From an uncultured Bacteroidales bacterium (GTDB lineage: Bacteria > Bacteroidota > Bacteroidia > Bacteroidales > UBA932), in NCBI GenBank assembly GCA_944326315.1, contig CALVDP010000013.1, forward strand, positions 1 through 51,228: DNA of 51,228 bases, read 5' to 3'. Position 1 is the first letter of the stretch. Every line of letters begins with the position of its first letter. The notes beneath the pieces were generated by a model. The model did not search any database, was not told the DNA's origin, and was given only the letters and a program-made list of their open reading frames with translations. The position numbers and the translations under genes were made by a program. This document shows, in pieces, positions 2,207 to 36,750 of the stretch.

Positions 2207-2452
2207 TTAATTTAACGTGAGTTCGATGAATTTTAATTATTGAAAATCATCGAACTACCGCTGAGGAGCAGGACGCAAGTCCTGCGACGGGCCCCCGGCG
2301 AGGGGGCGGTAGGGGGTGGCGCCCCTTGGAAAGGGGCTGTCGCCACAGCGACTGGGGTTTAAGAAAATTGGATTTCGCAGAAATCCTTAACGACTGTTCG
2401 ACGAATTCCTTGGTCCTGAGCAACCTAAATTCGTCGAACTGACGTTAATTTA
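2207..2452. mobile_element. MITE-like element copy 1 with 8-bp target duplication
   Basis: The element spans 2215-2444 (230 bp) and is flanked on both sides by TTAATTTA (2207-2214 and 2445-2452). Its ends are imperfect inverted repeats: the left starts ACGTGAGTTCGATGAA and the right, read inward, starts ACGTCAGTTCGACGAA. A left hairpin pairs AGTTCGATGA (2220-2229) with TCATCGAACT (2247-2256). The interior is a chain of perfect short-loop hairpins, such as GCAGGAC-GCAA-GTCCTGC (2268-2285, a GNRA-type loop) and GGATTTC-GCA-GAAATCC (2370-2386). The right hairpin spans 2389-2446. The interior is more GC-rich and differs from the other copies, so it is a divergent subfamily. No coding potential is seen. 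Confidence 0.82.
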
Positions 2453-2483
2453 ACTATATGTCAATTGTTTAGGTGACACTTCG

Positions 2484-3050
2484 TCACATCAGGTATGCGG
2501 ACATGTCATCGCCTTTCCCAAGTCCTTCACGTATTTCCGTCGAAGAAATATTCACTTCAGGTGCATCTGCAACCGTGATCCTGCATTCGAGCCCGTCCCT
2601 GTGCAGCTCTTCTTCAAGTCTTGCCTTCAGTGCATTGCAGTCGAAGCCTTTCCGCGGGAAGACGACAAGTCCGTATTCCGAAATAATCCTTTCATAGTCC
2701 TTCCACCTGTGTATGCCGGCAAGGTTGTCCGCCCCGACCACGAGCGAGAAATCATTTTCAGGTTCGCGTCTTTTCAGCGCGTCCAATGTCCTGACGGTGT
2801 ACTGCGGGGCCGGCATCCTGAGCTCTATGTCATCTGCCCTGGCATTGAGCCCGTTGCGGCGGATAGCCTCGCATGCAGCTGCATACCTTTCTGCCGCACT
2901 GTCTGCGCTTATATTGTCTTTCAGCGGATTTTTCGGGGATACGATCAGGTACACCGTGCTGAAATCCATTTTTTCAGTCAGATATGCGATGATGGCCCTG
3001 TGTCCGATGTGAAGCGGATTGAAGGACCCGGAATATACTGCTATCTTCAT
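2484..3050 (-). CDS. nadD: Nicotinate-nucleotide adenylyltransferase
   Basis: A 188-residue enzyme that joins ATP to nicotinate mononucleotide to make deamido-NAD in NAD synthesis, in the cytoplasm. The nucleotidyltransferase signature GSFNPLHIGH is at residues 8-17, and the C-terminal ISSTEIREGL block is typical of NadD. The length fits the family. Its ATG overlaps the stop of gmk by 4 bases (ATGA), so the two are almost surely one transcript with translational coupling. Downstream lies element copy 1, which separates it from the CYTH gene. Confidence 0.95.
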   Translation of the reverse strand: MKIAVYSGSFNPLHIGHRAIIAYLTEKMDFSTVYLIVSPKNPLKDNISADSAAERYAAACEAIRRNGLNARADDIELRMPAPQYTVRTLDALKRREPENDFSLVVGADNLAGIHRWKDYERIISEYGLVVFPRKGFDCNALKARLEEELHRDGLECRITVADAPEVNISSTEIREGLGKGDDMSAYLM

Positions 3051-3634
3051 TTCTGCCCTGGTCTGATGCCCCTGCGTATGAAGTCTCCAACGACTTTGTC
3101 CGCTTCTGCGAATGTCTTCCGCAGATCATCGTTGACAAGGACATAGTCGAACTGGCCGGCGTATGTCATTTCTTCTGCCGCCTTGGCTACTCTTTTGCCG
3201 ATGGCTTCGGGGCTGTCGGTAGCTCTTTTTTCAAGCCGTTCTTTCAGGACTTCGACAGACGGGGCGCTGATGAAGATGGACAGGGCATGTTCACCGAATA
3301 TCCTCTTGAGGTTCACTCCGCCTTTCACATCGACATCGAAGATTATGACATGTCCCTTTGACCAGATTCTTTCGACTTCGGACTTGAGCGTGCCGTAGAA
3401 TGATCCGGGGTACACTTCTTCGTATTCCACGAACTTGTCTCCGGCTATCAGTTCCCTGAAATGTCCTTCGGAAAAGAAATAGTATTCACGGCCGTCCTGT
3501 TCCTGACCTCTCGGGGCACGGGATGTGGCCGATATCGAGAATTCAAGCTCCGGATAGAGTCCGAGGATATGGTTGACGACCGTACTTTTGCCTGACCCTG
3601 AGGGTGCCGAAAAAATTATTACCTTGTTCTCCAT
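3047..3634 (-). CDS. gmk: Guanylate kinase
   Basis: A 195-residue cytoplasmic enzyme that phosphorylates GMP to GDP. The P-loop SAPSGSGKST lies at residues 9-18, followed by the GMP-binding stretch (TSRAPRGQEQDGREYYF) and the lid region with RATDSPEAI. Start 3634 (MENKVIIF) puts the P-loop at the usual distance; an in-frame Met at 3655 would add seven residues, and the longer frame to 3751 would run through the promoter palindrome. It forms an operon with nadD. Its likely promoter is the minus-strand half of the palindrome at 3701-3720. Confidence 0.95.
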   Translation of the reverse strand: MENKVIIFSAPSGSGKSTVVNHILGLYPELEFSISATSRAPRGQEQDGREYYFFSEGHFRELIAGDKFVEYEEVYPGSFYGTLKSEVERIWSKGHVIIFDVDVKGGVNLKRIFGEHALSIFISAPSVEVLKERLEKRATDSPEAIGKRVAKAAEEMTYAGQFDYVLVNDDLRKTFAEADKVVGDFIRRGIRPGQK

Positions 3635-3700
3635 ACTGACAATGTTGTTCCGCATAATGCTGCGGCGTGTTCCGATATGTTCTTTTATTTTTAATATTCT

Positions 3701-3720
3701 GCAAAAATAATTATTTTTGC
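3701..3720. promoter_or_regulatory. Palindrome with back-to-back -7 boxes (gmk / fba)
   Basis: GCAAAAATAATTATTTTTGC is a perfect 20-bp palindrome between the divergent gmk and fba genes. Each half contains TATTTTTG, a match to the Bacteroidota -7 consensus TAnnTTTG: plus strand 3712-3719, minus strand 3702-3709. It would serve fba 95 bases downstream and gmk 67 bases downstream on the other strand. No clear -33 TTTG is seen on either side. It may also be an operator. Confidence 0.55.
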
Positions 3721-3814
3721 GTGGTTTTGGGAATGACAGCAGGAAAAGCATGGATCTTTGCGGCTGTCAGCCCTGCCGGACGATACGGATAGAATACTTT
3801 TAAATATTAAGGTT

Positions 3815-4816
3815 ATGGTATCTTATAAGAATCTGGGTCTTGTGAACACCAGGGAAATGTTCAAGAAGGCCATCAACGGGGGATATGCCATCCCTGCATT
3901 CAATTTCAACAACATGGAGCAGCTCCAGGCTATCATCCAGGCTGCCGCTGCCACGAAGTCTCCGGTAATCCTCCAGGTTTCCAAGGGAGCGCGCAACTAT
4001 GCAAACCAGACACTTCTCCGCTACATGGCAGAAGGTGCAGTAGAATATGCCAAGGAGCTCGGCTGGGAGCATCCTCAGATTGTCCTCCACCTCGATCACG
4101 GTGATTCATTCGAGCTCTGCAAGAGCTGTGTGGACATGGGCTTCTCTTCAGTCATGATTGACGGCTCTCATCTTCCTTATGACGAGAATGTCGCCCTTAC
4201 CAGGAAGGTGGTAGAGTACGCACACCAGTTCGATGTCACCGTAGAAGGTGAGCTTGGCGTGCTTGCAGGCGTAGAGGATGAGGTTCAGGCAGAACATCAT
4301 ACCTATACAAGGCCGGAAGAGGTAGTGGATTTCACTTCCAAGACAGGATGCGATTCCCTGGCTATCTCCATCGGTACATCTCACGGTGCATACAAGTTCA
4401 AGCCGGAGCAGTGCACCCTTGACCCGAAGACAGGACGTCTCGTACCTCCGCCACTCGCATTCGATGTGCTTGACGGTGTGATGAAGGAGCTTCCTGGCTT
4501 CCCTATCGTACTCCACGGCTCTTCTTCCGTTCCTCAGGAGTATGTGGACATGATCAACCAGTACGGCGGCAAGCTCGATGCTGCCATCGGTATACCTGAG
4601 GAGGAGCTCCGCAAGGCTGCGAAGTCAGCTGTCTGCAAGATCAACATCGATTCAGACTCACGTCTCGCAATGACGGCTGCTATCCGCAAGGTGTTCGCAG
4701 AGAAGCCGGCTGAGTTCGACCCTCGCAAGTACCTCGGACCTGCACGTGACGAGATGAAGAAGCTTTATGAGCACAAGATCATCAATGTGCTCGGATCTGA
4801 CGGGAAGGCTGAATAA
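3815..4816 (+). CDS. fba: Class II fructose-bisphosphate aldolase
   Basis: A 333-residue metal-dependent aldolase that splits fructose 1,6-bisphosphate into two triose phosphates in glycolysis and works in reverse in gluconeogenesis. The zinc-site block is HLDHGDSFE, followed by the strand VEGELGVLAG and the phosphate-binding block LHGSSSVP. The start is ATG 3815 (MVSYKNLG); the frame is open further up but those residues do not fit the family. Codon choice looks more C-ending and even than in neighbours, as expected of a highly expressed gene. A terminator hairpin follows directly. Confidence 0.95.
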   Translation: MVSYKNLGLVNTREMFKKAINGGYAIPAFNFNNMEQLQAIIQAAAATKSPVILQVSKGARNYANQTLLRYMAEGAVEYAKELGWEHPQIVLHLDHGDSFELCKSCVDMGFSSVMIDGSHLPYDENVALTRKVVEYAHQFDVTVEGELGVLAGVEDEVQAEHHTYTRPEEVVDFTSKTGCDSLAISIGTSHGAYKFKPEQCTLDPKTGRLVPPPLAFDVLDGVMKELPGFPIVLHGSSSVPQEYVDMINQYGGKLDAAIGIPEEELRKAAKSAVCKINIDSDSRLAMTAAIRKVFAEKPAEFDPRKYLGPARDEMKKLYEHKIINVLGSDGKAE

Positions 4817-4842
4817 CAATAGCACCCGGACAGGAATATGAT

Positions 4843-4876
4843 GAGGATGGGTCAAAGTCTGGCTCATCCTCTTTTT
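4843..4876 (+). terminator. Rho-independent terminator after fba
   Basis: GAGGATG at 4843-4849 pairs with CATCCTC at 4865-4871 and is followed at once by five T residues (4872-4876). This is a classic intrinsic terminator shape, 27 bases after the fba stop, separating fba from bioB. Confidence 0.8.
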
Positions 4877-5001
4877 GTCCTCCATGGAGCCTTGTTCCAA
4901 ATAATCAATTCTCACGAAGGGAAAATCCTTCCGGACGCCTCCAACGCATGCGGATGCAGTCACTTTCCCTTCATGTGCAAGACAAATCCAATTGTTGGAA
5001 A

Positions 5002-5982
5002 ATGGAAGAAAGATACCCGAATGAAAATGTCCTTCAGCTTGCGGAGCGTGTAATATCCACAGGAAAAGGCATCACGGAAAGCGAGGCGGCGGCCCTGCAG
5101 TCCGCTCCGCTTGACATATTGTGCGAGGCTGCATCCAGGATAACGGCTGCATGTGCGTCTCATAAGTTCGATACATGCTCCATCATCAACGGCAAGTCCG
5201 GCAAATGCCCCGAAGACTGCAAATGGTGCGCGCAGTCAGCCCACTGGCATTCTGATGTCAGTGAATATCCTCTTGCCGATACTGAGAGACTGCTTGATGC
5301 CGCGCTATGCAGCAGAAGCAGGGGGATAGGACGCTTCTCCATAGTCACGAGCGGAAGAAAGCTCACCCATGCGGAAGTGAGACAGCTGTGCGATTCCGTG
5401 AGGGTCCTATCTGAGAAGGCTGGCATATCACTATGCCTGTCTGCCGGCCTGCTTCCGGACGACGATATGAAGGCTCTTGCGGAGGCCGGGATATCAAGAT
5501 ACCATTGCAACCTGGAGACCGCCCCGTCGTATTTCGGGAGACTGTGCACCACCCATACCCAGGCCGAAAAGACAGCTACTCTCAAGGCGGCATCCAGGGC
5601 CGGCATGGAAATCTGCAGCGGAGGGATCATCGGCATGGGGGAGAGCATGGCGCAGAGAATAGAGCTCGCCCTTGTCCTTAGGGATCTCGGTGTCCGGTCA
5701 GTGCCTGTCAATATTCTTTCTCCCATCCACGGGACGCCCCTCGAGAACGAGCCGCTTATTCCGGAAGACGAGATATTGAGGACAATAGCCATTCTTCGGT
5801 TTATTCTTCCCGATGCGGCCCTGAGGTTTGCCGGAGGCCGGGCAAGGCTTTCGCCGCAGGCTGTGCTCCAGGCCTACCGGACAGGTATAAATGCGGCGAT
5901 AATGGGAGACATGCTTACGACTGCCGGGGCGGATATCGATATGGACATGGCCCGTGTCCGTGAAGCCGGATATGAGCTCTGA
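5002..5982 (+). CDS. bioB: Biotin synthase
   Basis: A 326-residue radical SAM enzyme that inserts sulfur into dethiobiotin to make biotin. The 4Fe-4S cysteines are Cys69, Cys73 and Cys76 in GKCPEDCKWCAQS. Later blocks include the CNLETAPSYF stretch, which in BioB supplies substrate and cluster contacts, and RFAGGRARLS, carrying the arginine ligand region of the 2Fe-2S cluster. The start is ATG 5002 (MEERYPNEN), with an in-frame upstream Met at 4948 judged unlikely. No other biotin gene is nearby, so it stands alone. Element copies follow 65 bases after its stop. Confidence 0.95.
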   Translation: MEERYPNENVLQLAERVISTGKGITESEAAALQSAPLDILCEAASRITAACASHKFDTCSIINGKSGKCPEDCKWCAQSAHWHSDVSEYPLADTERLLDAALCSRSRGIGRFSIVTSGRKLTHAEVRQLCDSVRVLSEKAGISLCLSAGLLPDDDMKALAEAGISRYHCNLETAPSYFGRLCTTHTQAEKTATLKAASRAGMEICSGGIIGMGESMAQRIELALVLRDLGVRSVPVNILSPIHGTPLENEPLIPEDEILRTIAILRFILPDAALRFAGGRARLSPQAVLQAYRTGINAAIMGDMLTTAGADIDMDMARVREAGYEL

Positions 5983-6039
5983 TATCCAGCGGTTCCACGG
6001 CATGATGTCCGGATGTCCGGAAGTCACATCGGTGTCACC

Positions 6040-6251
6040 TTATTATAACGTGAATTCGATGAAATGAATGAAATGAATTTCAGAGAATTACCTCTATAGA
6101 GGACGAAGTCCGGCGTAAGTTCTCCCCTACGCAGGGGAGAATTTAAGAGGGGTGACACGAAAAAGGAAAGGGATTTCGAAGAAATCGTAACGTCAGTTCG
6201 ACGGAATCTCTGATATTGAACAGAATAATTCGTCGAACTGACGTTATTATA
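6040..6251. mobile_element. MITE-like element copy 2a with 8-bp target duplication
   Basis: The 196-bp element at 6048-6243 is flanked by TTATTATA on both sides (6040-6047 and 6244-6251). The left end is ACGTGAATTCGATGAA and the right end, read inward, ACGTCAGTTCGACGAA. Inside are the hairpins GGAC-GAA-GTCC, CTCCCCT-ACGC-AGGGGAG (6122-6139) and GATTTC-GAA-GAAATC, then a long right-end hairpin whose arms are about 17 bases. It has the same length as copy 3 at 36548 and differs from it at roughly a dozen positions by eye. With copy 2b it fills most of the 365-bp gap between bioB and the RluA gene. Confidence 0.85.
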
Positions 6252-6335
6252 ACGTGAATTCGATGAAATGAATGAAATGAATTCAAGAGGGGTGACACGA
6301 AAAAGGAAAGGTATTTTGAAGAAATCGTTATTATA
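6252..6335. mobile_element. Shortened MITE-like copy 2b, tandem with 2a
   Basis: A 76-bp derivative (6252-6327) begins with the same left end, ACGTGAATTCGATGAA, and carries the internal block GAGGGGTGACACG. It ends at GAAGAAATCG, the point where the right-end hairpin begins in full copies. A third TTATTATA (6328-6335) follows. It therefore lacks both part of the interior and the whole right hairpin. It lies 12 bases past the stop of the minus-strand RluA gene. Confidence 0.75.
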
Positions 6336-6347
6336 TATGGAACCGGA

Positions 6348-7193: not shown

Positions 7194-7223
7194 TCGGCAA
7201 ATTTACAACTAATTTGCCGAATG
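7191..7223. promoter_or_regulatory. Perfect 13-bp inverted repeat between rluA-like and CDF genes
   Basis: CATTCGGCAAATT (7191-7203) and AATTTGCCGAATG (7211-7223) are exact reverse complements separated by 7 bases. The left arm includes the start codon of the minus-strand RluA gene. The right arm ends 7 bases before a plus-strand -7 match, TATTTTTG at 7231-7238, so the repeat covers the region where RNA polymerase would contact the CDF promoter. This is a good candidate operator, perhaps metal-responsive; that function is inference. Confidence 0.6.
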
Positions 7224-7272
7224 ACCTTTATATTTTTGCATCGGAAAAAGGATAGTAAAAAGGATTAGAGTC

Positions 7273-8190: not shown

Positions 8191-8195
8191 CCCAC

Positions 8196-8256
8196 ATGTA
8201 GTCCGCACGCAGACCGTATGTAGTCTGCACACAGACCGTATGTAGTCCGCACACGT
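8196..8256. repeat. 22-bp tandem repeat, 2.8 copies, after CDF gene
   Basis: Units begin at 8196, 8218 and 8240, each starting ATGTAGTC and containing GCAC-CGCAGACC-like sequence; units 1 and 2 differ at two positions and unit 3 is 17 bases long. The following sequence (ACACGTATGCC, ACGTATGCC) is a further degenerate echo to about 8275. The array sits just after the CDF stop and before the next promoter. It is too short, and without spacers, to be a CRISPR array. Confidence 0.85.
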
Positions 8257-8295
8257 ATGCCAACACGTATGCCGCACGCATGTCTGTCATTTTAT

Positions 8296-8326: not shown

Positions 8327-8357
8327 CAAAATGTATTGAAACCGATAAACCCTACTA

Positions 8358-14585: not shown

Positions 14586-17500
14586 ATGAAGATCAAATTG
14601 TTAGTCAGCATGGCATTGCTCTTTTCCTTTTTCCTGGCGGCGTCCTATACAGCCTCCGGACAGGATATGACCATTACCGGAAAGGTACTGGACGAAGCCG
14701 GTGTGCCGGTGATAGGGGCAAGTGTCATTGAAAGCGGCACCCAGAACGGTGCCATTACCGATCTGGACGGAAACTATATCCTTGAAGTGGGCCCGGGCTC
14801 AACGATAGAGATATCATCCATCGGTTTCAAGTCCGTTACCCTCCAGGTGACAGAGACCCGGACTGTGTACGACGTGACGCTTGCCCAGGATACGGAACTC
14901 CTTGACGAAGTGGTCGTGGTCGGCTACGGTACGATGAAGAGGAGCGACCTCTCCGGAGCATCTGTGTCAGTGAGCGAGGACGCGCTCAAGGGATCGGTGA
15001 TATCATCTCTCGACCAGTCTCTTCAGGGCAGGGCAGCAGGTGTCACGGCAGTGACGACATCCGGTGCACCGGGCTCATCGTCATCCATACGTGTCCGCGG
15101 ACAGGCTACCATCAATGCCAATGCCGAGCCTCTCTATGTGATCGACGGTGTGATAGTCCAGGGCGGAGGCAACTCGGGAGCTGACTTCGGTCTGGCGGAT
15201 GCGCTCGGAAACGGAAAGGTGTCCACCATATCCCCTCTGTCCACCATCAACCCTGCGGATATTGTCAGCATGGAAATCCTCAAGGACGCATCTGCGACGG
15301 CGATTTACGGTGCCCAGGGTGCGAACGGCGTGGTCCTCATCACTACCAAGAGGGGAAAGGCCGGCGATGCCAAGATCTCGTATGACGGAATGTTCGCTGT
15401 CTCACAGCAGACCAAACGTCTTGACATGATGAATCTCAGGGAGTTCGCGGAGTTTTACAATGACCTTGCCGTAGTGGGCGAGATGTCCGACCCGAGCGAA
15501 GTCTATTCCGATCCGTCTATCCTCGGCACGGGTACCAACTGGCAGGATGCCATATTCCGTACCGCATACCAGCATCAGCACCAGCTTTCGGTTTCAGGAG
15601 GTACTGAAAAGGTCCAGTATTATGTGTCTGGCTCCTATATGGACCAGCAGGGTACTATTATCGGCAGTAACTTCAACCGTTTCAGCGTGCGTACCAACCT
15701 TGACGCGCAGCTCAAGAAGTGGATCAAGCTCGGACTGAACGTCACCTTCGCCAATACCAACGACGACCTCAAGCTCGCCGACTCGAACCAGGGTCTCATC
15801 TACTACTCACTCACCACCCGTCCTGACATTCCGATATATGACCTTGACGGGAACTACGCTTCCATAGTGGACGAGCACAATACAAACCCGAACCCTATCG
15901 GAATCGCCATGGAGGACGATATCCTGCTCAACCGGCAGAAACTCACGGGTAGCATATTCGCCGACATCACCCCGATAAAGCACCTGGTATGGCGCACGGA
16001 GCTCGGCTTCGACTTCGGCTGGAGCAAGGCTGAACGTTACAAGCCTATGCTTGACTTCGGGAACTGGACCCGAGACACCAACGAAAGCAGCATCCAGAAC
16101 AACAAGAACATCTTCTGGCAGCTCAAGAACTATCTGACCTATTCAAATACATGGGGCAAGCACAGCGTCACCGCAATGGTCGGACAGGAAATGTGGGAAT
16201 CGCGTTATGAATACGCCAGTGTCTTCAACAACGGCCTTCCGTCTGACGTCGTCCATAACCCTTCCCTCGGAACAGGTGACCCGAGCATTTCTGCCGGCTT
16301 CGGAAGCTCGTCTATGGCTTCATTTTTCACCCGTGAGACCTACAACTATGATGACCGCTATCTCCTGACCTATACGTTCCGTTATGACGGTTCGTCCAAT
16401 TTCGGTCCGGATAACCGCTGGGCGGGCTTCCATTCGGTGGCTGCATCATGGAGATTCTCCAACGAGAAGTTCTTCGAGGGTCTCAAGAACGTGATAAGCA
16501 ACGGTAAGCTCCGTCTGGGCTGGGGACAGACCGGAAACGCCAATATAGGCGCATATGCCTGGGGCGCTTCCATAAGCAGGATGCCTACGGGACTGGGAAT
16601 GGGCTACCGTCCGTCCAACATCCCGAACACCGGTATCCGCTGGGAGTCACAGGAGCAGTGGAACATCGGTCTCGACCTCGGCTTCTTCGATGACAGGCTG
16701 AATCTTACCGTGGATGCATATCTGAAGCGTTCCGCCGACATGCTCATGTCGATGCAGCTTCCTTCCTACATGGGTACGCAGGGCAATGTGTCATCAGTCC
16801 TCGCGGCTCCTCAGGGCAACTACGGAAGCATCGAGAACAGAGGACTGGAAATCACCCTCGACACTCATCCTATTGTAGGCAAGTTCACCTGGGACAGCAA
16901 TTTCCAGATTTCGTTCAACCGCAACAAGCTACTGTCTCTGTCAGGCACGGAAAACGCTTCCCTTGTGGGATACGGACAGTGGAACGATGTGGTTTGCGTC
17001 TCTGCAATAGGCGAATCCCTGTACAATTTCTACGGATATGAGGTAGAGGGAGTCTACGAATCCCTTGAGGACCTCCAGAATTCCCCTAAACCAGCAAGAT
17101 ATCCGTCGGACGGAGTGTTCAACAAGTCCAATACGGTATGGGTCGGCGACCTCAAGTTCAAGGACCAGCCTACGGTCGACACGGACGGTGACGGGGTACC
17201 TGACACGGGAGACGGAGTCATCGACGAGAATGACCGCGTGAATCTCGGCTCACCGCTGCCTCTGTTCACTTTCGGATGGACGAACACGTTCACATACAAG
17301 AACTTCGACCTGAGCATATTCCTTAACGGCTCGTTCGGAAACAAGGTCATGAACTACAACTCCATTACCCTAACGCACATGAACAGCGCGTGGACCAACC
17401 AGCTCAATTCCGTTTCCGACAGGGCGCAGCTCGTGCCAATCGACCCTGACAAGGTATATGAGGACGGCTCGATGTGGTACGACGACATCACCAACGTAAG

Positions 17501-17840
17501 GGTGGCCAATCCGGGCACAAAGACCCCGCGTGCGTCCATCAACGACCCTAACGACAACGACCGCATAAGTTCGAGATATGTCGAGGACGGATCTTACCTC
17601 CGTATCAAGAACATTACCTTGGGATACACCTTCCCGAAAAAGTGGATGGACAAGGCAAGGATCGACAACCTGCGCATATACTGCAACATACAGAATCTCT
17701 ACACCTTCACCAGGTATTCGGGATATGACCCTGAAATCGGTGCGAGCACGCAGGATGCCACAGGACTTACCTACGGTGTGGACAACGGACGTTACCCGAG
17801 CCCTACCACCTATTCCATAGGTCTGAACATCACATTCTAA
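14586..17840 (+). CDS. SusC-like TonB-dependent outer-membrane transporter
   Basis: 1084 residues, the usual length for SusC proteins. The signal peptide ends near TASG (residue 25). Residues about 28-110 form the carboxypeptidase-regulatory-like extension (GKVLDEAGVPVIGASV), followed by the VVVGYG box and the plug (SIRVRGQATINANAEPLYVIDGV). The rest is a 22-strand beta barrel ending in aromatic SIGLNITF. An EF-hand-like acidic loop (DTDGDGVPDTGDG, near residue 865) is common in this family. With the SusD next door it would import mannan oligosaccharides using TonB energy. Gap to the GH5-CE7 gene is 79 bases. Confidence 0.97.
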   Translation: MKIKLLVSMALLFSFFLAASYTASGQDMTITGKVLDEAGVPVIGASVIESGTQNGAITDLDGNYILEVGPGSTIEISSIGFKSVTLQVTETRTVYDVTLAQDTELLDEVVVVGYGTMKRSDLSGASVSVSEDALKGSVISSLDQSLQGRAAGVTAVTTSGAPGSSSSIRVRGQATINANAEPLYVIDGVIVQGGGNSGADFGLADALGNGKVSTISPLSTINPADIVSMEILKDASATAIYGAQGANGVVLITTKRGKAGDAKISYDGMFAVSQQTKRLDMMNLREFAEFYNDLAVVGEMSDPSEVYSDPSILGTGTNWQDAIFRTAYQHQHQLSVSGGTEKVQYYVSGSYMDQQGTIIGSNFNRFSVRTNLDAQLKKWIKLGLNVTFANTNDDLKLADSNQGLIYYSLTTRPDIPIYDLDGNYASIVDEHNTNPNPIGIAMEDDILLNRQKLTGSIFADITPIKHLVWRTELGFDFGWSKAERYKPMLDFGNWTRDTNESSIQNNKNIFWQLKNYLTYSNTWGKHSVTAMVGQEMWESRYEYASVFNNGLPSDVVHNPSLGTGDPSISAGFGSSSMASFFTRETYNYDDRYLLTYTFRYDGSSNFGPDNRWAGFHSVAASWRFSNEKFFEGLKNVISNGKLRLGWGQTGNANIGAYAWGASISRMPTGLGMGYRPSNIPNTGIRWESQEQWNIGLDLGFFDDRLNLTVDAYLKRSADMLMSMQLPSYMGTQGNVSSVLAAPQGNYGSIENRGLEITLDTHPIVGKFTWDSNFQISFNRNKLLSLSGTENASLVGYGQWNDVVCVSAIGESLYNFYGYEVEGVYESLEDLQNSPKPARYPSDGVFNKSNTVWVGDLKFKDQPTVDTDGDGVPDTGDGVIDENDRVNLGSPLPLFTFGWTNTFTYKNFDLSIFLNGSFGNKVMNYNSITLTHMNSAWTNQLNSVSDRAQLVPIDPDKVYEDGSMWYDDITNVRVANPGTKTPRASINDPNDNDRISSRYVEDGSYLRIKNITLGYTFPKKWMDKARIDNLRIYCNIQNLYTFTRYSGYDPEIGASTQDATGLTYGVDNGRYPSPTTYSIGLNITF

Positions 17841-17855
17841 TTAAAAAGGAACAAT

Positions 17856-19601
17856 ATGAAATACAATATAATAAAAATTGTTTTTGCTGGTGTCCTTGTC
17901 ATGGGACTGTCTTCCTGCGACGATTTCCTCAACCGTCCTGCCGTAGACACCTACAATGTCTCTAACTTCTACCAGAACGACGCCCAGTGCATCCAGGGTG
18001 TGAACTATCTCTACAATTCGCCGTGGTTTGACTTCCAGAGGGCGTTCCTGTGGGTCGGCGAGGTTATGTCAGGAAATCTCTATTTCGGTGACAGCCAGTA
18101 TCTTGACCTCTCTGTCAATGGTACCGACGTCGATCTTATCAACATGTCCTACTCCCTGTGGTCGGTAAACGGCCATGCGAATACCGTGATAGACAATATC
18201 CTAAATTCCGAGGGGCCGTCACAGGAGGTGAAGAACCAGTGCATCGGGGAGGCCCTGACATGGAAGGCCTTCGCCTATTTCTTCATGGTAAGGTCTTTCG
18301 GTGAGGTGCCTATCATCCATAACAATACCGACTTGATAGTGTCAGGCGAGTACAACAATGTCTATAAGGCCACACGTGCCAATGTGTACGAATATATAGT
18401 GATGACATTGGAGAAGGCCATGGAGCTTCTTCCGAAATCAGGGGTCAATGCCAACGGCCGTATCGACTACTATGCCGCCGAAGCCCTTCTCGCCAAGGTG
18501 TACCTGACCAAGGCCGGACTTTCAGGCAGCCTGAGCGCGGATGACCTGAACATGGCTGCCACCTATGCAGAGGATGTGATACTGAACTCGGGACGCGACC
18601 TGATGGCCAACTATTCCGACCTGTTCCGTCTTGCCAACAACATCAACGAGGAATGCCTCATATCATGGCAGTGGTCTCCGAGCCGCGACCCGTGGACACA
18701 GCAGAACAGCATCCAGCCGGATGTGGCCATGACCGGATTCTCCGATTTCGAGGAGAACTGCTGGGGTGGCTGGAGAGGCCCGTCCGTGGACCTTCAGGAT
18801 GCTTTCGGAGTGAGTGCTGACGAGAATCCGAGCAACAGGGTGGCCGAAAAGGATACGCGCCGCAAGGCTACCATGATGATGGCCGGAGACACATACGACT
18901 ATTTCTGGACCGACAAGGGAGGTTTCGACTATCTGCGCTTCATCTATGATTCAGAAGACTACGGCAGGGGAGGCCCGAGCGGGCAATACCAGTCGGCTAC
19001 CGGGGCGAATGTCGTGAAGCATCTTACCGGACGTCAGGCTGACCATGTCGCAGGACTGGGCGTGACTGCATCAAATATGGCAACAGGCCTTGCCACGCAT
19101 CTTCTCCGTTTCGCCGACGTGCTTCTGATATATGCAGAGGCCAAGATGGGAACGGCACGCGAGACATCTGACGAAGCTGCAATCGAGGCTTTCAACCGTG
19201 TGCGCCGCCGTGCCGGTGTGGATGAGATAACATCCGGTGTCCTCACATGGGAGGACGTCTGGAAGGAACGCCGTCTCGAACTTGCCCTTGAAGGGGACCG
19301 CTGGTATGATTTCGTGCGCAGGTCCTATTATGACATGCAGGGGGCCATCAACGAGATAAGGAACCAGAGAAGAAACGACTGGTACGGGCTTGGCACCCTG
19401 TATGAGGCTTATTACGAGTCCGGCTACCAGACCTGGACAATCACCGAAGATGTCCGTTACAATACCAATACACCGGCTCCTAACGTGACAGCTTCAAGCT
19501 TCACCCTTCCGTTCCCGACAGAGGACATCGTGTTCAACCCGCATCTTGCGGAGCCTGCCGTCGAAGTGGATGTAAGGGCATTGTACAGTTATGACTTTTA
19601 A
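17856..19601 (+). CDS. SusD-like nutrient-binding lipoprotein
   Basis: 581 residues, lipid Cys21 in LSSCDDFLNRP, the acidic residues after it fitting surface export in Bacteroidota. The RagB/SusD fold is shown by the N-terminal YLYNSPWFDF segment, TPR-like helices (EALLAKVYLTKAGL) and the C-terminal block RLELALEGDRWYDFVRR. It acts as the lid of the SusC transporter and presents oligosaccharides to it. It lies 15 bases after SusC, translationally close. The exact ligand is inferred from the neighbours to be beta-mannan oligosaccharide. Confidence 0.96.
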   Translation: MKYNIIKIVFAGVLVMGLSSCDDFLNRPAVDTYNVSNFYQNDAQCIQGVNYLYNSPWFDFQRAFLWVGEVMSGNLYFGDSQYLDLSVNGTDVDLINMSYSLWSVNGHANTVIDNILNSEGPSQEVKNQCIGEALTWKAFAYFFMVRSFGEVPIIHNNTDLIVSGEYNNVYKATRANVYEYIVMTLEKAMELLPKSGVNANGRIDYYAAEALLAKVYLTKAGLSGSLSADDLNMAATYAEDVILNSGRDLMANYSDLFRLANNINEECLISWQWSPSRDPWTQQNSIQPDVAMTGFSDFEENCWGGWRGPSVDLQDAFGVSADENPSNRVAEKDTRRKATMMMAGDTYDYFWTDKGGFDYLRFIYDSEDYGRGGPSGQYQSATGANVVKHLTGRQADHVAGLGVTASNMATGLATHLLRFADVLLIYAEAKMGTARETSDEAAIEAFNRVRRRAGVDEITSGVLTWEDVWKERRLELALEGDRWYDFVRRSYYDMQGAINEIRNQRRNDWYGLGTLYEAYYESGYQTWTITEDVRYNTNTPAPNVTASSFTLPFPTEDIVFNPHLAEPAVEVDVRALYSYDF

Positions 19602-29115: not shown

Positions 29116-29118
29116 CTC

Positions 29119-30557: not shown

Positions 30558-33500
30558 ATGAAACTTTTGAAAACAATAACCGGACTGCTTCTTGCCGCAT
30601 TGCCCCTTGCCGGCACCATGCCTGCAATGGCGGACACTCCTGTCGGGGAGAACGGCTGGCTTTCTGTGAAGGGGCATTCACTGGTCAACGAGAAAGGCAA
30701 TCCTGTGACGCTTTCCGGCGTAAGCATCGGCTGGCACAACCTGTGGCCGAGATTCTACAACCACGGTACGGTAGACCAGCTTGCCGGAGAATGGGGATGC
30801 AATGTAGTCCGGGCAGCGATAGGTGCGGAGCTTGACGGCAATTTCGCTTCCGATCCGGAGACAGCCCTGCAGTCGCTTTACAGGGTGGCTGACGCCGCCA
30901 TAGAGAACGGCATATATGTGATTGTGGACTGGCATGCCCACAAGTTGCGTCTGGATGAGGCCAGGAGGTTCTTCAAGGCTGTGACGGACAGGTACAAGGG
31001 AGTACCCAATGTCATATATGAAGTCTTCAACGAGCCTGTGGACGACAGCTGGGCGGATATCAAGGCCTACGCGGAAGACATCATATCGGTCATAAGGTCA
31101 GCAGAGCCGAAGGCATTGGTGCTGGTGGGCTGCCCTCACTGGGATCAGGACGTGCATATTGTAGCGGATGACCCGATAAAGGGACTGGACAACATCATGT
31201 ACACCCTGCATTTCTATGCCGGGACACACGGCGCTGAACTCCGGGTAAGGGGAGACTACGCCATATCCCGCGGCATTCCGCTGTTCGTGTCGGAATGTGC
31301 TGGCATGAATGCCGACGGTGACGGTCCTCTGGATCTGGAAGAATGGGCTGCATGGTGGGAATGGATGGATGCCAACGGGCTGAGCCGCGTCATGTGGTCT
31401 CTTTCGGACAAGGACGAGACATGTTCGATGCTTCTGCCGTCCGCATCTTCGGAAGGTCCGTGGGATGACGGCGTCATCAAGGAATGGGGCAGGACTGTAC
31501 GTGAATACCTGTCCATTGACCAGGGCAGGGAAAAGGATCTTGTCCATGTCTCTACGGACAGGATGTCGATGGTGCTGGATGCCTGTCCCGGAAAGCAGTT
31601 GCGATATCTGTATTTCGGCGAAAGGCTGTGCGAGTCTGATATGCAGGGTCTCCTGCGCAGCGGAATGCCTTCGGCGGATGCTTATCCGGCTTATGGTATG
31701 AACTGCCTGTCGGAGCCTGCACTGGCAGTGGTGCATCCTGACGGGAACATGACGTTGCAGCTGGTTGTGGAGAGTGTCTCCACCATTCGTGAAGACAATG
31801 CGGAAGTCACCAGGATAAGGCTGAAGGATACCTTCTATCCGTTCTATGCCGACATATGCTACAGAGCTTATGATGACACCGAAATGATAGAGACGTGGAC
31901 TGAGCTTGCAAATATGGCCAAAAAGCCTGTATTACTCAGGGAATACGCTTCGGCATATCTTCCTGTGCGCAAGGGAGACGTGTGGATATCGCATCTGTAC
32001 GGTTCCTGGGCGGATGAGGGCAGGGTGGCCTGCGAGCCTCTTGCTCCTGGCATCAAGGTCATCAGCAACAGGGACGGGGTGCGCAATTCGCACACTTCAC
32101 ACGCCGAGGTCATGATTTCACTGGACGGAAAACCGAGGGAGAACAGCGGGGACGTAATAGGGGCGGCCCTGTGTTACAGTGGAAACTATGAACTGAAGTT
32201 CCATACCGGGGATACGGATTTCCATGGATTCTTCGCAGGTATCAATCCTGATGCATCCGAATACCGCCTTATGCCGAAAGAGACTTTCGTGACCCCGGAA
32301 CTTGCCCTGACATACAGCCGCGAGGGACTCGGAGGCGCAAGCCGGAATTTCCATGACTGGGCCCGCAGATACAGGCTCGCACACGGGGATATTGAACGCA
32401 AGATATTGCTGAACAGCTGGGAAGGAGTCTATTTCGACATTACGGAAGACGGAATGGACAGCATGATGAAGGACATTGCCTCAATGGGAGGCGAACTTTT
32501 CGTGATGGACGACGGCTGGTTCGGAGGCAGATACCAGAGGAACCGGGACAATTCATCGCTGGGTGACTGGCAGACTGACACCCGGAAGCTTCCCAACGGC
32601 ATAGCCGGACTTGTGAAGACCGCCGGAAGTCACGGGATAGGCTTCGGTATATGGATAGAGCCGGAGATGACCAATACTGTCAGCGAACTATACGAAAAGC
32701 ATCCTGACTGGGTGCTGAAACCAGTCTCCCGCGACCCTGTGACAGGACGCGGCGGTACCCAGCTTGTCCTCGACCTGGGCAATCCTCAGGTGCAGGACTT
32801 CGTATTCGATGTCGTGGACAGGCTCATGACAGAAAACCCCGGCATCGAATACATAAAATGGGACGCCAACATGTCGATAATGACCCATGGCTCGCAATAT
32901 CTCGGCAAGGACAGGCAGAGCGAGATGTATATCCGTTATCATCAGGGACTCGTCTCTGTATGCGAAAGGATACGCGCCAAATATCCGGACCTTGTCATCC
33001 AGGCATGCGCAAGCGGGGGAGGACGGGCCAACTACGGTATCCTTCCGTGGTTTGACGAGTTCTGGGTAAGTGACAACACCGATGCCCTCCAGCGCATCTA
33101 CATGCAGTGGGGAACATCGTACTTCTTCCCTGCAATAGCCATGGCATCACATATAAGCGCAGCTCCGAATCATCAGACTTTCAGAACCATACCGCTGAAA
33201 TACAGGATAGATGTGGCAATGAGCGGACGTCTCGGCATGGAAATCCAGCCCAAGAACATGACGGCAGAGGAGAAGGAGCTGTGCCGGAAGGCGATAGCAG
33301 AATACAAGATGATAAGGCCGGTGGTACAGTTCGGGGACATCTACAGGCTGGTCTCTCCGTATGACGGCTTCAACCTTGCTTCCCTTATGTACTGTTCCAA
33401 GGACAAGTCCGAGGCGGTGTTCTACTGGTGGAAGCTGGAGCATTTCAGGAACGAACATCTTCCACGGGTGAAAATGGCCGGGCTTGACCCTGACAGAATG

Positions 33501-33674
33501 TACCGTGTGACTGAGCTTGACAGGATAGACAACAAGCCTCTTCCGTTCGAAGGCATGTCTTTTTCCGGCAGATACCTCATGTCCACGGGGCTTGAGATAC
33601 CTTATACGCATACCGTTGACTACCATTTGCAGAATGACTGGTCAAGCCGTGTGCTTTATCTTGTAGCGGAATGA
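30558..33674 (+). CDS. GH5-GH36 fusion: endo-glycanase plus alpha-galactosidase
   Basis: 1038 residues with a cleavable signal peptide (ends near AMA, residue 26), so periplasmic. Residues about 30-325 are a GH5 of the subfamily 2-like type: GVSIGWHNLWPRFYN, VDWHAH, acid/base Glu159 in VFNEP, HFYAGTH, nucleophile Glu246 in VSECAG, WSLSDKDE. Residues about 335-1035 are a full GH36 alpha-galactosidase: DDGWFGGR, nucleophile Asp769 in KWDAN, CASGGGRANYG, acid/base Asp839 in SDNTDA. One chain would cut the backbone of galacto(gluco)mannan oligosaccharides and strip galactose. The start is ATG 30558; the frame opens at a TTG 15 bases earlier. The stop overlaps the GH2 start. Confidence 0.93.
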   Translation: MKLLKTITGLLLAALPLAGTMPAMADTPVGENGWLSVKGHSLVNEKGNPVTLSGVSIGWHNLWPRFYNHGTVDQLAGEWGCNVVRAAIGAELDGNFASDPETALQSLYRVADAAIENGIYVIVDWHAHKLRLDEARRFFKAVTDRYKGVPNVIYEVFNEPVDDSWADIKAYAEDIISVIRSAEPKALVLVGCPHWDQDVHIVADDPIKGLDNIMYTLHFYAGTHGAELRVRGDYAISRGIPLFVSECAGMNADGDGPLDLEEWAAWWEWMDANGLSRVMWSLSDKDETCSMLLPSASSEGPWDDGVIKEWGRTVREYLSIDQGREKDLVHVSTDRMSMVLDACPGKQLRYLYFGERLCESDMQGLLRSGMPSADAYPAYGMNCLSEPALAVVHPDGNMTLQLVVESVSTIREDNAEVTRIRLKDTFYPFYADICYRAYDDTEMIETWTELANMAKKPVLLREYASAYLPVRKGDVWISHLYGSWADEGRVACEPLAPGIKVISNRDGVRNSHTSHAEVMISLDGKPRENSGDVIGAALCYSGNYELKFHTGDTDFHGFFAGINPDASEYRLMPKETFVTPELALTYSREGLGGASRNFHDWARRYRLAHGDIERKILLNSWEGVYFDITEDGMDSMMKDIASMGGELFVMDDGWFGGRYQRNRDNSSLGDWQTDTRKLPNGIAGLVKTAGSHGIGFGIWIEPEMTNTVSELYEKHPDWVLKPVSRDPVTGRGGTQLVLDLGNPQVQDFVFDVVDRLMTENPGIEYIKWDANMSIMTHGSQYLGKDRQSEMYIRYHQGLVSVCERIRAKYPDLVIQACASGGGRANYGILPWFDEFWVSDNTDALQRIYMQWGTSYFFPAIAMASHISAAPNHQTFRTIPLKYRIDVAMSGRLGMEIQPKNMTAEEKELCRKAIAEYKMIRPVVQFGDIYRLVSPYDGFNLASLMYCSKDKSEAVFYWWKLEHFRNEHLPRVKMAGLDPDRMYRVTELDRIDNKPLPFEGMSFSGRYLMSTGLEIPYTHTVDYHLQNDWSSRVLYLVAE

Positions 33675-36553
33675 TGAGAAGATTTGCTCTGACATTGCTG
33701 ATATCCGTCCTTGCCCCAAACCTTCTTCATGGAGGCTCGGGCAGGGACAGCCTTTTCCTTGACGGCAGCTGGGAATCAACGTTGGGGACATGTGTCCTTC
33801 CGGGGACGACAGATGAAAACAGATTGGGCGGAGGTAATGCCTCCACACCGGTGACATCCGGTCTGACCAGGCTTTATCCATTCGAAGGGAAGGTGACCTA
33901 TACCAGGACAGTGGAAATTCCCGTATCATTCTCGGGAAAACGTCTGTCTCTTGTGCTCGAAAGGACCAAGCCGAGTACATTGTCAATAGACGGAGTGGAG
34001 GCCGGAAGCGATTCCAGCCTTCTCGTACCTCATGTATATGAATTGCCGTCGCTGCAGCCCGGACTGCATGAAATCTCGCTTATAGTGGACAATTCGCCTG
34101 CAGCCGTACCTGAGCAGGTGCGGAGTTCCCATGCCTGGAGCGATGCCACACAGACGAACTGGAATGGTGTTATCGGCAGGATGTTCATAGAGGCTGTGGA
34201 TTCTGTATTCATTTCATCCATGGACATTTTCCCGGATGTGAAGAAGGGAATCGCGCTGGTGCGGACGGAAATTGTTTCAGACAGGGACTGCAGCGCAAGC
34301 CTTTCCATAAGGGCTGTGCCCGAGCCGTCGGACGCGGATGTTCCTGAAGGGAAGGTGCCGGCTTCCAGCATGCCTTCCCGGGTGTCCCGCAGCATAGACC
34401 TTTCTAAGGGCAGGAACGTGCATTCCTTCACTTTGGACATGGGTGACGACCCTCTGCTCTGGAGCGAATTCCATCCTCATCTGTACCGGTTTGACGCGGT
34501 GATGGAGACAGCGGAGTGCAAGGATTCGCTGTCAGTGTATTCCGGCATGAGGGATTTCTCGACAGACGGGACAAGCTTTGCCAACAACGGATGCAAGGTC
34601 TTCCTGCGTGGAAAGCACGATGCATGCGTATTCCCGCTCACAGGCTATCCTCCTATGGATACGGAAGCATGGAGGGAATTGTTCTCCAGGGCCAGGGAAT
34701 ACGGGATAAACCATTACCGCTTCCATTCATGGACACCGCCGGAGGCTGCTTTCGAGGCAGCGGACAGGGAAGGAGTCTATCTGCAGCCGGAGCTTCCTCT
34801 ATGGGGCGCAGTGGAAAGGGCAGACAGCAGTCTTGACATATTCGTGCGCCGCGAAGCCGCAAGGATTCTTGCAGAGTACGGCAACCATCCGTCTTTCGTC
34901 ATGTTTTCATTGGGAAATGAACTGCACGGCGATACCGGTCTGATGGCGGAATGGACAGAGGAGTTCCGAAAGTCTGACGGGCGTCATCTCTATTGCTTCG
35001 GGTCCAACAACAATCTTGGCTGGGAAGGCCCTCAGGACGGTGAGGACTATTTCGTGGCTTGCAGGGTAGGCTGGGGTGAGGGCTATTCGTCGCACACCAG
35101 GACCACCTTCGCCTTTGCCGATGCCGACAAGGGCGGGATATTGAACAATACCAGACCCGGCACAAGGGGTGATTATTCCGGGGCAATATCGGCAAGTCCG
35201 GTACCTGTGGTAAGCCATGAGAACTGCCAGTTCCAGATATATCCCGACTATTCTGAAACAGACAAGTACACGGGTGTGCTGTATCCTTACAATCTGGAGA
35301 TTTTCAGGCAGCGCCTTCATGATAACGGAATGGGAGACAGGGCGGAGGATTTCAGCAAGGCTTCCGGCCGTTTTGCAGTGGAGTGCTTCAAGGCTGATTT
35401 TGAATATGCCTTGCGGACACCGGGCTTCGGAGGTTTCCAGGTCCTTGACCTGCAGGACTATCCTGGACAGGGAACGGCACTTGTGGGAGTCTTGGACGCG
35501 TTCATGGACAGCAAGGGCGTGGTGACGCCGGAGGAGTTCAGACACTTCTGTTCTCCAGTTGTCCTGCTGGCGTCTTTTGACAGCTATTGCCTGACAAGGC
35601 GTGATACTGTTGATGTGGATCTTCTTGTCTCGAACTATACCGAGGAGGAATTCCGTGAGACTTTGCTGTGGAGGCTGTCCGTGACGGATGCACGGGGATT
35701 GTCCGGCAAAGGAGTCCGTTTCCCGCCGGAACTTTCAGGCAGTGTCCCTGTGTCTGTTGCCAACGGAGAAGTGTCGCATTCCGGCAATATCACGGTACCT
35801 CTGGAGGAATATCTCGGTAAGACTCTTGATGACATGGCATTCTGCCTGTCTCTGGAGTTGTCGGCAGGGGAGTATTCGAACCTGTACAAGTTTTGGGTCT
35901 ATCCGGACAATACGGCAGGGGACAGGCTTCCGCGCGGTCTTGTGACGGCAGATACTGCGGATGACAGGCTCAGGCAGATGTTGGAGGACGGCAGGACTGT
36001 GCTGCTTTTCCCTTCGCACGGGGATATTGTGGACAATTCTGTCGGAGGGCTTTTCACTCCTGATTTCTGGAACTGGTCAATGTTCAGAAGAGTATCCGAA
36101 CGGGCCGGAAAGGAGATATCTCCCGGCACACTGTCAGTAATCAACGATCCGGAGCATCCGGCTTTCGGGCTTTTCCCGAATGAAGGCCACAGTGACTGGC
36201 AATGGTGGAGCATCAGCCTGCATTCAAGACCTCTGATAATGGACAGTCTTGACGGATACACGCCTGTGCTGCAGGTGATTGACAATGTGGAAAGATGCCA
36301 CAAGTTAGGCATTGTGGCAGAATTTGCTGTTGGCAATGGCAGGCTGTTGATATGCACGACTGACCCTGATGCCGTATCCGGCACACCGGAAGGGGCGGCA
36401 TTCATCGCATCTCTTGCCGCCTATGCCTCGTCAGACAATTTCAGCCCGTCGTACAGACTGGACTGGAATGACCTGCTTCAGCTTCTGTACGGAAAGGCCG
36501 GAGACAATGAGGTGACTGACGGAGTGGAGAATCCAACTGCTTATTCAACGTGA
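33671..36553 (+). CDS. GH2-family glycosidase, C terminus altered by element insertion
   Basis: 960 residues with a signal peptide (ends near residue 21), so periplasmic. GH2 layout: jelly-roll sugar-binding domain (about 25-180), Ig-like domain (about 185-300), TIM barrel with acid/base Glu417 in FSLGNEL and likely nucleophile Glu517 in VVSHEN, then Ig-like and glutaminase-like (GATase-type) C-terminal regions (about 650-960). The SHEN form is not the usual EfG of beta-mannosidases or LacZ, so its substrate is uncertain; beta-mannoside or beta-galactoside is possible. The ATG overlaps the previous stop (ATGA). The last codon (ACG) and stop (TGA) lie inside mobile-element copy 3. Confidence 0.88.
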   Translation: MMRRFALTLLISVLAPNLLHGGSGRDSLFLDGSWESTLGTCVLPGTTDENRLGGGNASTPVTSGLTRLYPFEGKVTYTRTVEIPVSFSGKRLSLVLERTKPSTLSIDGVEAGSDSSLLVPHVYELPSLQPGLHEISLIVDNSPAAVPEQVRSSHAWSDATQTNWNGVIGRMFIEAVDSVFISSMDIFPDVKKGIALVRTEIVSDRDCSASLSIRAVPEPSDADVPEGKVPASSMPSRVSRSIDLSKGRNVHSFTLDMGDDPLLWSEFHPHLYRFDAVMETAECKDSLSVYSGMRDFSTDGTSFANNGCKVFLRGKHDACVFPLTGYPPMDTEAWRELFSRAREYGINHYRFHSWTPPEAAFEAADREGVYLQPELPLWGAVERADSSLDIFVRREAARILAEYGNHPSFVMFSLGNELHGDTGLMAEWTEEFRKSDGRHLYCFGSNNNLGWEGPQDGEDYFVACRVGWGEGYSSHTRTTFAFADADKGGILNNTRPGTRGDYSGAISASPVPVVSHENCQFQIYPDYSETDKYTGVLYPYNLEIFRQRLHDNGMGDRAEDFSKASGRFAVECFKADFEYALRTPGFGGFQVLDLQDYPGQGTALVGVLDAFMDSKGVVTPEEFRHFCSPVVLLASFDSYCLTRRDTVDVDLLVSNYTEEEFRETLLWRLSVTDARGLSGKGVRFPPELSGSVPVSVANGEVSHSGNITVPLEEYLGKTLDDMAFCLSLELSAGEYSNLYKFWVYPDNTAGDRLPRGLVTADTADDRLRQMLEDGRTVLLFPSHGDIVDNSVGGLFTPDFWNWSMFRRVSERAGKEISPGTLSVINDPEHPAFGLFPNEGHSDWQWWSISLHSRPLIMDSLDGYTPVLQVIDNVERCHKLGIVAEFAVGNGRLLICTTDPDAVSGTPEGAAFIASLAAYASSDNFSPSYRLDWNDLLQLLYGKAGDNEVTDGVENPTAYST

Positions 36554-36750
36554 ATTCGATGAAATGAATGGAATGAATTTCATCGAATTACCTCTATGGA
36601 GGACGAAGTCCGATGTAAGTTCTCCCCTACGCAGGGGAGAATTTAAGAGGGGTGACACGAAAAAGGAAAGGGATTTCGAAGAAATCGTAACGTCAGTTCG
36701 ACGGAATCTTTGATACTGAACATAAAAATTCGTCGAACTGACGTTATTCA
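36541..36750. mobile_element. MITE-like element copy 3 in the end of the GH2 gene
   Basis: The 196-bp element at 36548-36743 is flanked by TTATTCA (36541-36547 and 36744-36750), a 7-bp target duplication. Left end ACGTGAATTCGATGAA; right end, read inward, ACGTCAGTTCGACGAA. Near the left end AATTCGATGAAAT and ATTTCATCGAATT are perfect 13-bp arms, clearer than in copy 2a. Internal hairpins CTCCCCT-ACGC-AGGGGAG (36622-36639) and GATTTC-GAA-GAAATC (36672-36686) are intact. The ACG TGA at its left tip ends the GH2 reading frame. The remaining sequence to 36833 holds nothing else I recognise. Confidence 0.87.

Follow-up and report, generated by a model that had tools for sequence, protein, structure and literature searches.

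A hairpin-rich family of MITEs with IS982-type ends in an uncultured Bacteroidales bacterium

Element copies in the window and in its genome

The window, a stretch of 51,228 nucleotides from the draft genome of an uncultured Bacteroidales bacterium, contains four copies of a hairpin-rich element (Table 1). All four lie where the original prediction had placed them, and re-reading the window sequence bears out the ends claimed for them as well as the tetraloops GCAA and ACGC and the triloops GAA and GCA. The flanking direct repeats are real too, but the lengths first given to them (8, 8 and 7 bp) were one T too long, because the added T is also part of the element's end; the repeats are TAATTTA, TATTATA and TATTCA. 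None of the window copies fully contains an open reading frame of at least 80 aa. The host ORF that runs into copy 4 would, with the empty site rejoined, encode 965 aa with the C-terminus AYSDYPGAD.

Table 1. Elements, flanking repeats and associated features in the window
Feature	Position	Strand	Remarks
Copy 1, 233-bp type MITE	2214..2446	+	Core ACGT...ACGT 2215-2445; from sequence and own-genome matches
Left direct repeat, copy 1	2208..2214	.	TAATTTA
Right direct repeat, copy 1	2446..2452	.	TAATTTA
Left-end hairpin, copy 1	2220..2256	+	Helix 1; outer arm AGTTCGATG, inner arm CATCGAACT
Central structured module, copy 1	2265..2357	+	Model R1
Right-end hairpin, copy 1	2389..2446	+	Helix 8; right terminal inverted repeat forms the outer arm
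Copy 2, 199-bp type MITE	6047..6245	+	Core 6048-6244
Left direct repeat, copy 2	6041..6047	.	TATTATA
Middle repeat, common to copies 2 and 3	6245..6251	.	TATTATA
Right-end hairpin, copy 2	6189..6245	+	
Copy 3, older remnant	6252..6328	+	Internally deleted, without right-end hairpin
Third repeat, right flank of copy 3	6329..6335	.	TATTATA
Copy 4, 199-bp type MITE	36547..36745	+	Core 36548-36744
Left direct repeat, copy 4	36542..36547	.	TATTCA
Right direct repeat, copy 4	36745..36750	.	TATTCA
Host ORF, 960 aa	33671..36553	+	Current stop TGA falls within copy 4

Within the examined stretches of the window's genome we found 59 elements with both ends, which at 144-471 bp are too short for a transposase gene, as this takes about 300 codons. 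The 196-bp copy, used as query, has at least 47 matches in its own genome, and among the matches listed 10 places, copy 2 included, are 100% identical to it across 196 bp. The 230-bp copy has at least 41 matches, nine of them full-length among those listed, scoring in both searches having covered 40 candidates; also among the matches listed, three other copies are identical to copy 1 along 230 bp and five are at 90-100%. The right-end 19-mer occurs, with up to three mismatches, at 188 places (a count that includes both arms of each hairpin); the reversed pattern, used as control, occurs at 3. In plasmid and phage collections the 196-bp copy found no match (distant blastn mode). We also observed that the elements account for a number of the contig ends in the draft.

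Tabulating the flanks, we found that 52 of the 58 elements with both flanks lie between exact, AT-rich direct repeats 6-9 bp long (7 bp in 27, 6 bp in 16, 8 bp in 7 and 9 bp in 2) and that six do not; 51 of the 52 repeats start with TA. With the minimum length set at 5 bp, 49 of 54 elements have flanking repeats, compared with a mean of 2.6 and a maximum of 9 in 1000 flank shuffles. The copies are dispersed, and most have a target duplication of their own; genome-wide copies without duplications were what the original prediction had named as speaking against recent transposition. Terminal inverted repeats, target-site duplications and multiple dispersed copies, which are among the features by which a MITE is recognised, are all present.

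Terminal sequences and the IS982 family

The search for an insertion sequence with matching ends succeeded in a genome of the same genus, G072, but not in the window's own genome, a 103-contig draft with 0 matches to the IS982 transposase. Over its left 19 bp the 1,056-bp insertion sequence of G072 agrees fully with the 199-type left end, and over its right 19 bp it has one mismatch; it encodes a 312-aa ORF assigned to NF033520 (251 bits, cut-off 130) and PF13612. At the single site where it is complete, an exact target duplication is lacking. Of 81 genus genomes, four (G039, G050, G072 and G125) score above the cut-off of the IS982-family profile, and one of them, G125, has 233-type elements as well (at least 10 matches). 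Because the stretch shared by the MITE and the G072 insertion sequence is just about 20 bp at each end, origin of the MITE by simple internal deletion is unsupported.

We considered whether the elements might be REP/REPIN-like palindromes moved through a single-strand mechanism by a REP-associated tyrosine transposase, given that each end is a long hairpin in which the terminal repeat recurs in inverted form and that solo right-end hairpins are present. Target duplications are not expected of that mechanism, however, and their exactness at 52 elements, together with the occurrence in the genus of a DDE transposase with matching ends, makes it very improbable.

The ends of the MITE family, AACGTGARTTCGATGAA and TTCGTCGAACTGACGTT, begin ACGT and are bordered by repeats of 6-9 bp, which fits the values given for the IS982 family (ends 5'-AC, direct repeats of 2-10 bp, 8 bp for IS195; PMC7335449). 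At the positions reported to be most conserved in IS982 ends, AC(N)6T(N)5TT, the AC and the T are present, and the left ends of the MITE and of the G072 insertion sequence alike have AA in place of the final TT. Published ends from another Bacteroidales host, Porphyromonas gingivalis, are closely similar: for ISPg3 they are given as ACGTCAGTTCGA and TCGAACTGACGT, the latter identical to the MITE right end, and for MITE239 the left end is given as ACGTGAGTTCGAT..., which matches the 233-type left end over 13 bases (Klein et al. 2015, PMC4596501). ISPg3, or IS195, has been assigned to the IS982 family (PMC7335449, PMC13305171).

With ends that coincide with ISPg3/IS195 ends and are similar to that of MITE239, this is a new element family of an already known kind. 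The comparison with MITE239 and MITE700 covers published ends, and the available part of their description mentions neither a modular hairpin cargo nor a sense bias (PMC4596501). BrickBuilt, a further P. gingivalis element, is likewise MITE-like and intergenic with a structured internal cargo; its cargo, however, is a 23-nt tandem repeat, and its ends match ISPg1/ISPg9 rather than ISPg3 (PMC4596501). MITECca01 of Cardinium cOegib, with about 240 bp, 169 copies and palindromic inverted repeats, has ends resembling those of its IS982-family parent ISCca4; the parental element is intact in the same genome, whereas none was found in the genome studied here, and the account of MITECca01, as far as available, describes no structured module common to different families (Halter et al. 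2022, PMC9769881). Among the open-licence titles listed on IS982, on MITEs of Bacteroidales and on structured MITEs of operons, none names the present family, and for transposable elements of Cryptobacteroides no paper was listed. By the names of the matching sequences, the genus that hosts it is Cryptobacteroides.

Hairpin modules and their fold

Copies 1, 2 and 4 fold, on both strands, far more stably than 100 dinucleotide shuffles, with z-scores of -6.3 to -9.1. It had been proposed that the hairpins are kept across types; this holds for the two end hairpins and for one hairpin of the GGATTTC/GAAATC type, but in the middle the two types carry different modules. The R1 module of the 233-bp type is ordered as hairpin 1, CCCCC-GGCGA-GGGGG, GGGGGTG, two more hairpins and GGGG. 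Among 250 genus genomes, 25 carry R1, and no genome sampled from the rest of the order does; an order-wide search, whose stricter filters and restriction to the best 17 candidates per genome may miss weak matches, found it in 2 of 247 genomes, both within the genus. R1 is combined with other end sequences as well, and at several R1 loci where the left end is not intact the remaining hairpins are retained.

No known structured RNA family provides a convincing match to the elements in Rfam 15: at gathering scores the window yields just a tRNA, and three element stretches searched with E up to 5 give 13 matches in total, all far under the family gathering score. An intrinsic-terminator scan, whose promoter model is not a Bacteroidales one, returned three weak consensus matches in two stretches (shuffles 0.3-0.4 per stretch), two of them being the 5-bp base of a right-end hairpin.

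Selection on structure, as originally suggested, is partly supported. Alignment A1 comprises 19 elements (4 of the 9 full-length ones of the window's genome and 15 of 20 stretches from other genomes; left out were a longer, internally duplicated element and four that contig ends truncate); from a separate 23-element set, two were left out in which the left-end pattern was not found. Two-sided changes were observed at 9 of 56 pairs, against 4.1 in shuffles, and the covariation score is 0.131, compared with 0.082 for shuffled and at most 0.046 for slid alignments; "further pair types", one of five covariation measures, does not rise above the shuffles. Compensatory changes across species do exist. 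They could, however, also arise from palindrome correction, in which replication switches template at a hairpin, and most copies of the commonest type, the 199-bp one, show decay of one hairpin, the inner arm of the left hairpin matching perfectly in just 5 of 35. Near-perfect stems and short loops are what such correction would leave, and nothing in the data speaks decisively against it: single-pair A-U/G-C exchanges in otherwise unchanged stems, such as the one seen between copies in helix 1, fit both readings. Coupled with an insertion preference as the source of the orientation bias described below, palindrome correction is a substantial possibility, if somewhat short of probable, and it leaves the MITE reading untouched.

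Orientation, empty sites and a mechanism

Between co-directional genes, as called by a home-made ORF scorer, the elements of the window's genome lie 23 times in sense and 6 times antisense, and in a 56-locus genus sample, which includes orthologous or near-identical pairs and whose loci are not all independent, the counts are 27 and 5. The sample is a subset of R1 matches picked by score and genome, not by context (71 model matches less 11 same-place duplicates, a single match at the end of a contig, and tandem matches in L362, with one, and L369, with two). Elements are often immediately upstream of a start codon, and 21 of the 38 loci with a downstream start codon have it 93-103 nt past the module. 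All five of the ten identical and youngest copies that lie between co-directional genes are in sense, as insertion bias would give.

These positions, the compensatory changes in the stems and the loci that keep their hairpins despite lacking an intact left end could be taken to mean that the host selects the elements mainly as functional RNA leaders and that their transposon ends are incidental remnants. Against this, the ten places identical over 196 bp and the individual target duplications of the family point to recent mobility, and the downstream genes examined have no common theme. At one ABC-permease-like gene, moreover, the module is present at 2 and absent at 26 of 28 orthologs (those with at least 57% identity; two at 38-41% were omitted as likely paralogs), so that an ancient conserved leader at that locus is unsupported. 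We regard the host-selected alternative as unlikely. The bioB-rluA locus in G041 is also without the element; orthologous loci that all contain it were what the original prediction had put forward as contrary to recent transposition.

Given that the ends match those of the IS982-family insertion sequence of G072 and those published for ISPg3/IS195 and MITE239, we hold it highly likely that the copies belong to an IS982-mobilised MITE family with interchangeable hairpin modules, lying mostly in sense between co-directional genes and comparable to BOX as a structured MITE. Dispersed copies with individual duplications, the insertion sequence in a congener and the empty orthologous loci all uphold the original proposal of non-autonomous transposition by a transposase encoded elsewhere. 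An IS982-family transposase would recognise the MITE ends in trans and insert the element at AT-rich sites, mostly TA..A, duplicating 6-9 bp; a transposase of the G072 type or a close relative, lost or missing from the draft assembly, presumably moved the window copies. Their interiors consist of interchangeable hairpin modules, and the elements persist in gene gaps, where sense copies between co-directional genes may be transcribed as structured leaders or spacers, like BOX in pneumococcus.

Any RNA function of the elements is something that we infer. A stronger proposal, which we consider doubtful, is that R1 is a mobile RNA leader, carried on IS982-type MITEs and on elements with other ends, which inserts in sense immediately ahead of start codons or between cistrons and which selection keeps for the protection or insulation that the folded transcript gives the message; if so, transposon and RNA would be co-adapted. 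BOX of Streptococcus pneumoniae shares a modular make-up, strong structure, terminal repeats and target duplications, and is transcribed in 5' and 3' operon extensions, where it can affect neighbouring genes (Croucher et al. 2011, PMC3049150). The likeness is of kind only, by the available description. BOX has another host and another transposase relation (ISSpn2 has been proposed), and the pneumococcal repeats are described as over-represented between convergent genes whereas the present family is sense-biased between co-directional ones (PMC3049150).

With this hairpin-rich repeat of uncultured Bacteroidales tied to a definite transposase family, its mobility can be put to the test. The repeat adds to BOX, ERIC and Correia the case of a bacterial MITE with a conserved folded cargo, mostly in sense between co-directional genes, and this combination makes it testable whether the cargo serves the transposon, serves the host message or arises by mutation alone.

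Copy number and target duplications

Against the 2.42-Mb, 103-contig draft genome from which the window comes, the 196-bp query copy gave at least 47 blast matches and the 230-bp copy at least 41, and the right-end 19-mer, allowed up to three mismatches, occurred at 188 places (both hairpin arms counted) versus three for the reversed control. Among the stretches fetched around these matches we identified 59 elements with both a left and a right end. The 199-bp type makes up most of them, with 35 copies that fall into 17 distinct sequences; the remainder, the 233-bp type included, range from 144 to 471 bp, and the longer ones contain extra hairpin blocks. A block of about 85 bp has one orientation in the elements on contigs C10 and C19 and the opposite one on C38; in one direction it reads ATGGAAAAACTTCAGTTTAACCTG, and it may be a captured coding fragment. 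Several draft contigs (for example C21, C58, C66 and C86) start or end in or near an element, and the repeats therefore probably break the assembly.

Reading the element core as ACGT...ACGT, we found an exact direct repeat at 52 of the 58 elements with both flanks and none at the other six. The repeats are 7 bp (n=27), 6 bp (n=16), 8 bp (n=7) or 9 bp (n=2) long; 51 of the 52 start with TA, 42 end with TA, and their mean A+T content is 93%. Direct repeats of at least 5 bp flank 49 of 54 elements; when the right flanks were shuffled 1000 times, such repeats were seen at 2.6 elements on average and never at more than 9. At four places an intact copy and an adjoining remnant have a common target repeat; the three TATTATA in the window are consistent with a recent element having inserted into the target repeat that an earlier one had duplicated. 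The ORF at 33671-36553 takes its stop codon from copy 4; it encodes 960 residues, and the joined empty site would give 965.

Sites free of the element were also observed. In genome G041, 11 bases separate the two matched stretches at the bioB-rluA junction, which in the window is occupied by copies 2 and 3. An ABC-permease-like gene has R1, our model of the central structured module of the 233-bp type, directly upstream in G349 and G128, and the other 26 of 28 orthologs gave no R1 match at E ≤0.01; in most of these the start codon follows closely on the preceding stop codon, at no more than about 120 nt among those read by eye. Not all orthologous loci carry the element; had all of them done so, with the same flanks, this would have counted against recent transposition.

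Coordinates of elements and other features
Feature	Location	Remark
R1 module	window 2265-2357	centre of 233-bp type
Intact copy with remnant	window 6041-6335	common target repeat
Intact copy with remnant	C10:46565	common target repeat
Intact copy with remnant	C2:2729	common target repeat
Intact copy with remnant	C1:87130	common target repeat
Paired ORFs, then several further ORFs	window 14586-19601	presumably a SusC/SusD-like pair and several glycoside hydrolase-like genes of an ordinary polysaccharide-use locus
ORF ended by copy 4	window 33671-36553	
tRNA gene	window 51143-51215	right edge; Rfam RF00005, 73.7 bits
Longer element with ~85-bp insert, L101 2698-3008	G000:C38:10397-10707	direction opposite to L152
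Longer element with ~85-bp insert, L152	G000:C10:29623-30093	direction opposite to L101
Tandem module pair, L362	G128:C18:17900-18900	192 bp apart

An IS982 transposase with matching ends

The right end was present in 12 of 120 genomes, the window's own counted. In G072 (contig C29, stretch L161) the left and right ends span 1,056 bp and enclose a 312-aa ORF that scores 251 bits against NCBIfam NF033520 (IS982 family transposase; cut-off 130) and also matches Pfam PF13612; no exact direct repeat was seen at the one site of this IS. A candidate for the transposase that had been expected elsewhere lies in another genome. Neither protein search nor the family model found an IS982 transposase in the window's own genome, although the repeats that probably break this 103-contig draft could also have kept an IS982 copy out of it. 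Four of 81 genomes of the window's genus exceed the family-model cut-off. One of these, G125, in which the transposase gene runs off the contig end, also holds 233-type elements (at least 10 matches, with the best 9 of 99 candidates scored).

According to PMC7335449, members of the IS982 family have 5'-AC ends and are flanked by direct repeats 2-10 bp long, 8 bp in the case of IS195 of P. gingivalis. Klein et al. (PMC4596501) list ACGTCAGTTCGA/TCGAACTGACGT as the ends of ISPg3 and ACGTGAGTTCGATATAAAGGAA as the left end of MITE239, and assign ISPg3 to IS5; ISPg3 is equated with IS195 in PMC5771137, and IS195 is placed in IS982 by PMC7335449 and likewise by PMC13305171.

The structured module

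Of the seven named public matches of the module (records of the window's own genome possibly excluded), four come from Candidatus Cryptobacteroides species and three from uncultured Bacteroidales MAGs, and because of these we infer that the window belongs to Cryptobacteroides. R1 is present in 25 of 250 genomes of the genus, with up to at least 17 matches in one genome (the best 17 candidates being scored in each), and an order-wide sample of 247 genomes yielded it in two, each a member of the genus. Other copies of the module are joined to ends of a different type from IS982 or stand at places lacking an intact left end. In stretches L244, L245, L321 and L323, modules built on the same plan have end hairpins that bear no relation to the IS982 ends (for example CTGACAAAAATATGAAA type), those in L321 and L323 lying directly upstream of a start codon. 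The terminal hairpin of the tandem pair in L362 likewise has an end sequence unlike the IS982 type, and the pair suggests that the module and its end hairpin can be multiplied together in direct repeats.

From five genomes we took 19 elements of the 233 type, for which RNAalifold predicted 56 pairs. With 18 distinct rows counted, two-sided changes occur in 9 of the 56 pairs, a number that none of 500 shuffles reached (shuffled mean 4.1). The covariation score is 0.131, versus 0.082 in shuffles and no higher than 0.046 when the alignment was slid. These figures are to be read knowing that the alignment scored is also the one on which the structure was predicted and that related sequences may surpass shuffles without any structure. 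One of the five measures, further pair types, did not exceed the shuffles, 439 of 500 of which equalled or passed the observed value. In a second set of 21 elements (20 from G349, G384, G423, G473 and G488, one from G427), 5 of 55 pairs have two-sided changes. Paired changes can also arise by template switching at palindromes, and in the 199 type only 5 of 35 copies have a perfect inner arm in the left hairpin, which tells against structure being strictly required. The proposed selection on structure is therefore only partly supported.

Orientation relative to genes and likeness to known elements

In the window's own genome all 59 elements lie outside called genes. Between co-directional genes 23 are sense and 6 antisense (two-sided binomial p 0.0023); 15 lie between convergent genes, 8 between divergent genes and 7 at edges. 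The count over all 86 right ends is weaker (downstream gene on the same strand 51, opposite 31, none 4; p 0.035). At 56 module loci across the genus the co-directional count is 27 sense versus 5 antisense (p 0.0001). The start of the downstream gene faces the module at 38 of the 56, within 180 nt of the module end at 34 and at 93-103 nt, just past the terminal hairpin, at 21. The downstream genes that were read have no common theme; we take examples to be IF-2, superoxide dismutase and pyruvate formate-lyase activase. In two close species (L233, G053:C54; L248, G068:C52) the same FabH-like gene starts downstream of an element, and upstream of the element is a TATCTTTG box, which we take to be a likely Bacteroidales promoter; the element is therefore probably in the 5' leader of this gene.

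We conclude that the elements are an IS982-mobilised MITE family, biased towards the sense orientation, whose structured cargo is interchangeable. The family is new, its kind is already known and its features are variant; an IS982-derived MITE has been described in Cardinium (PMC9769881). We infer an RNA role for the elements, the closest functional analogy to this family being the BOX element as presented in PMC3049150.
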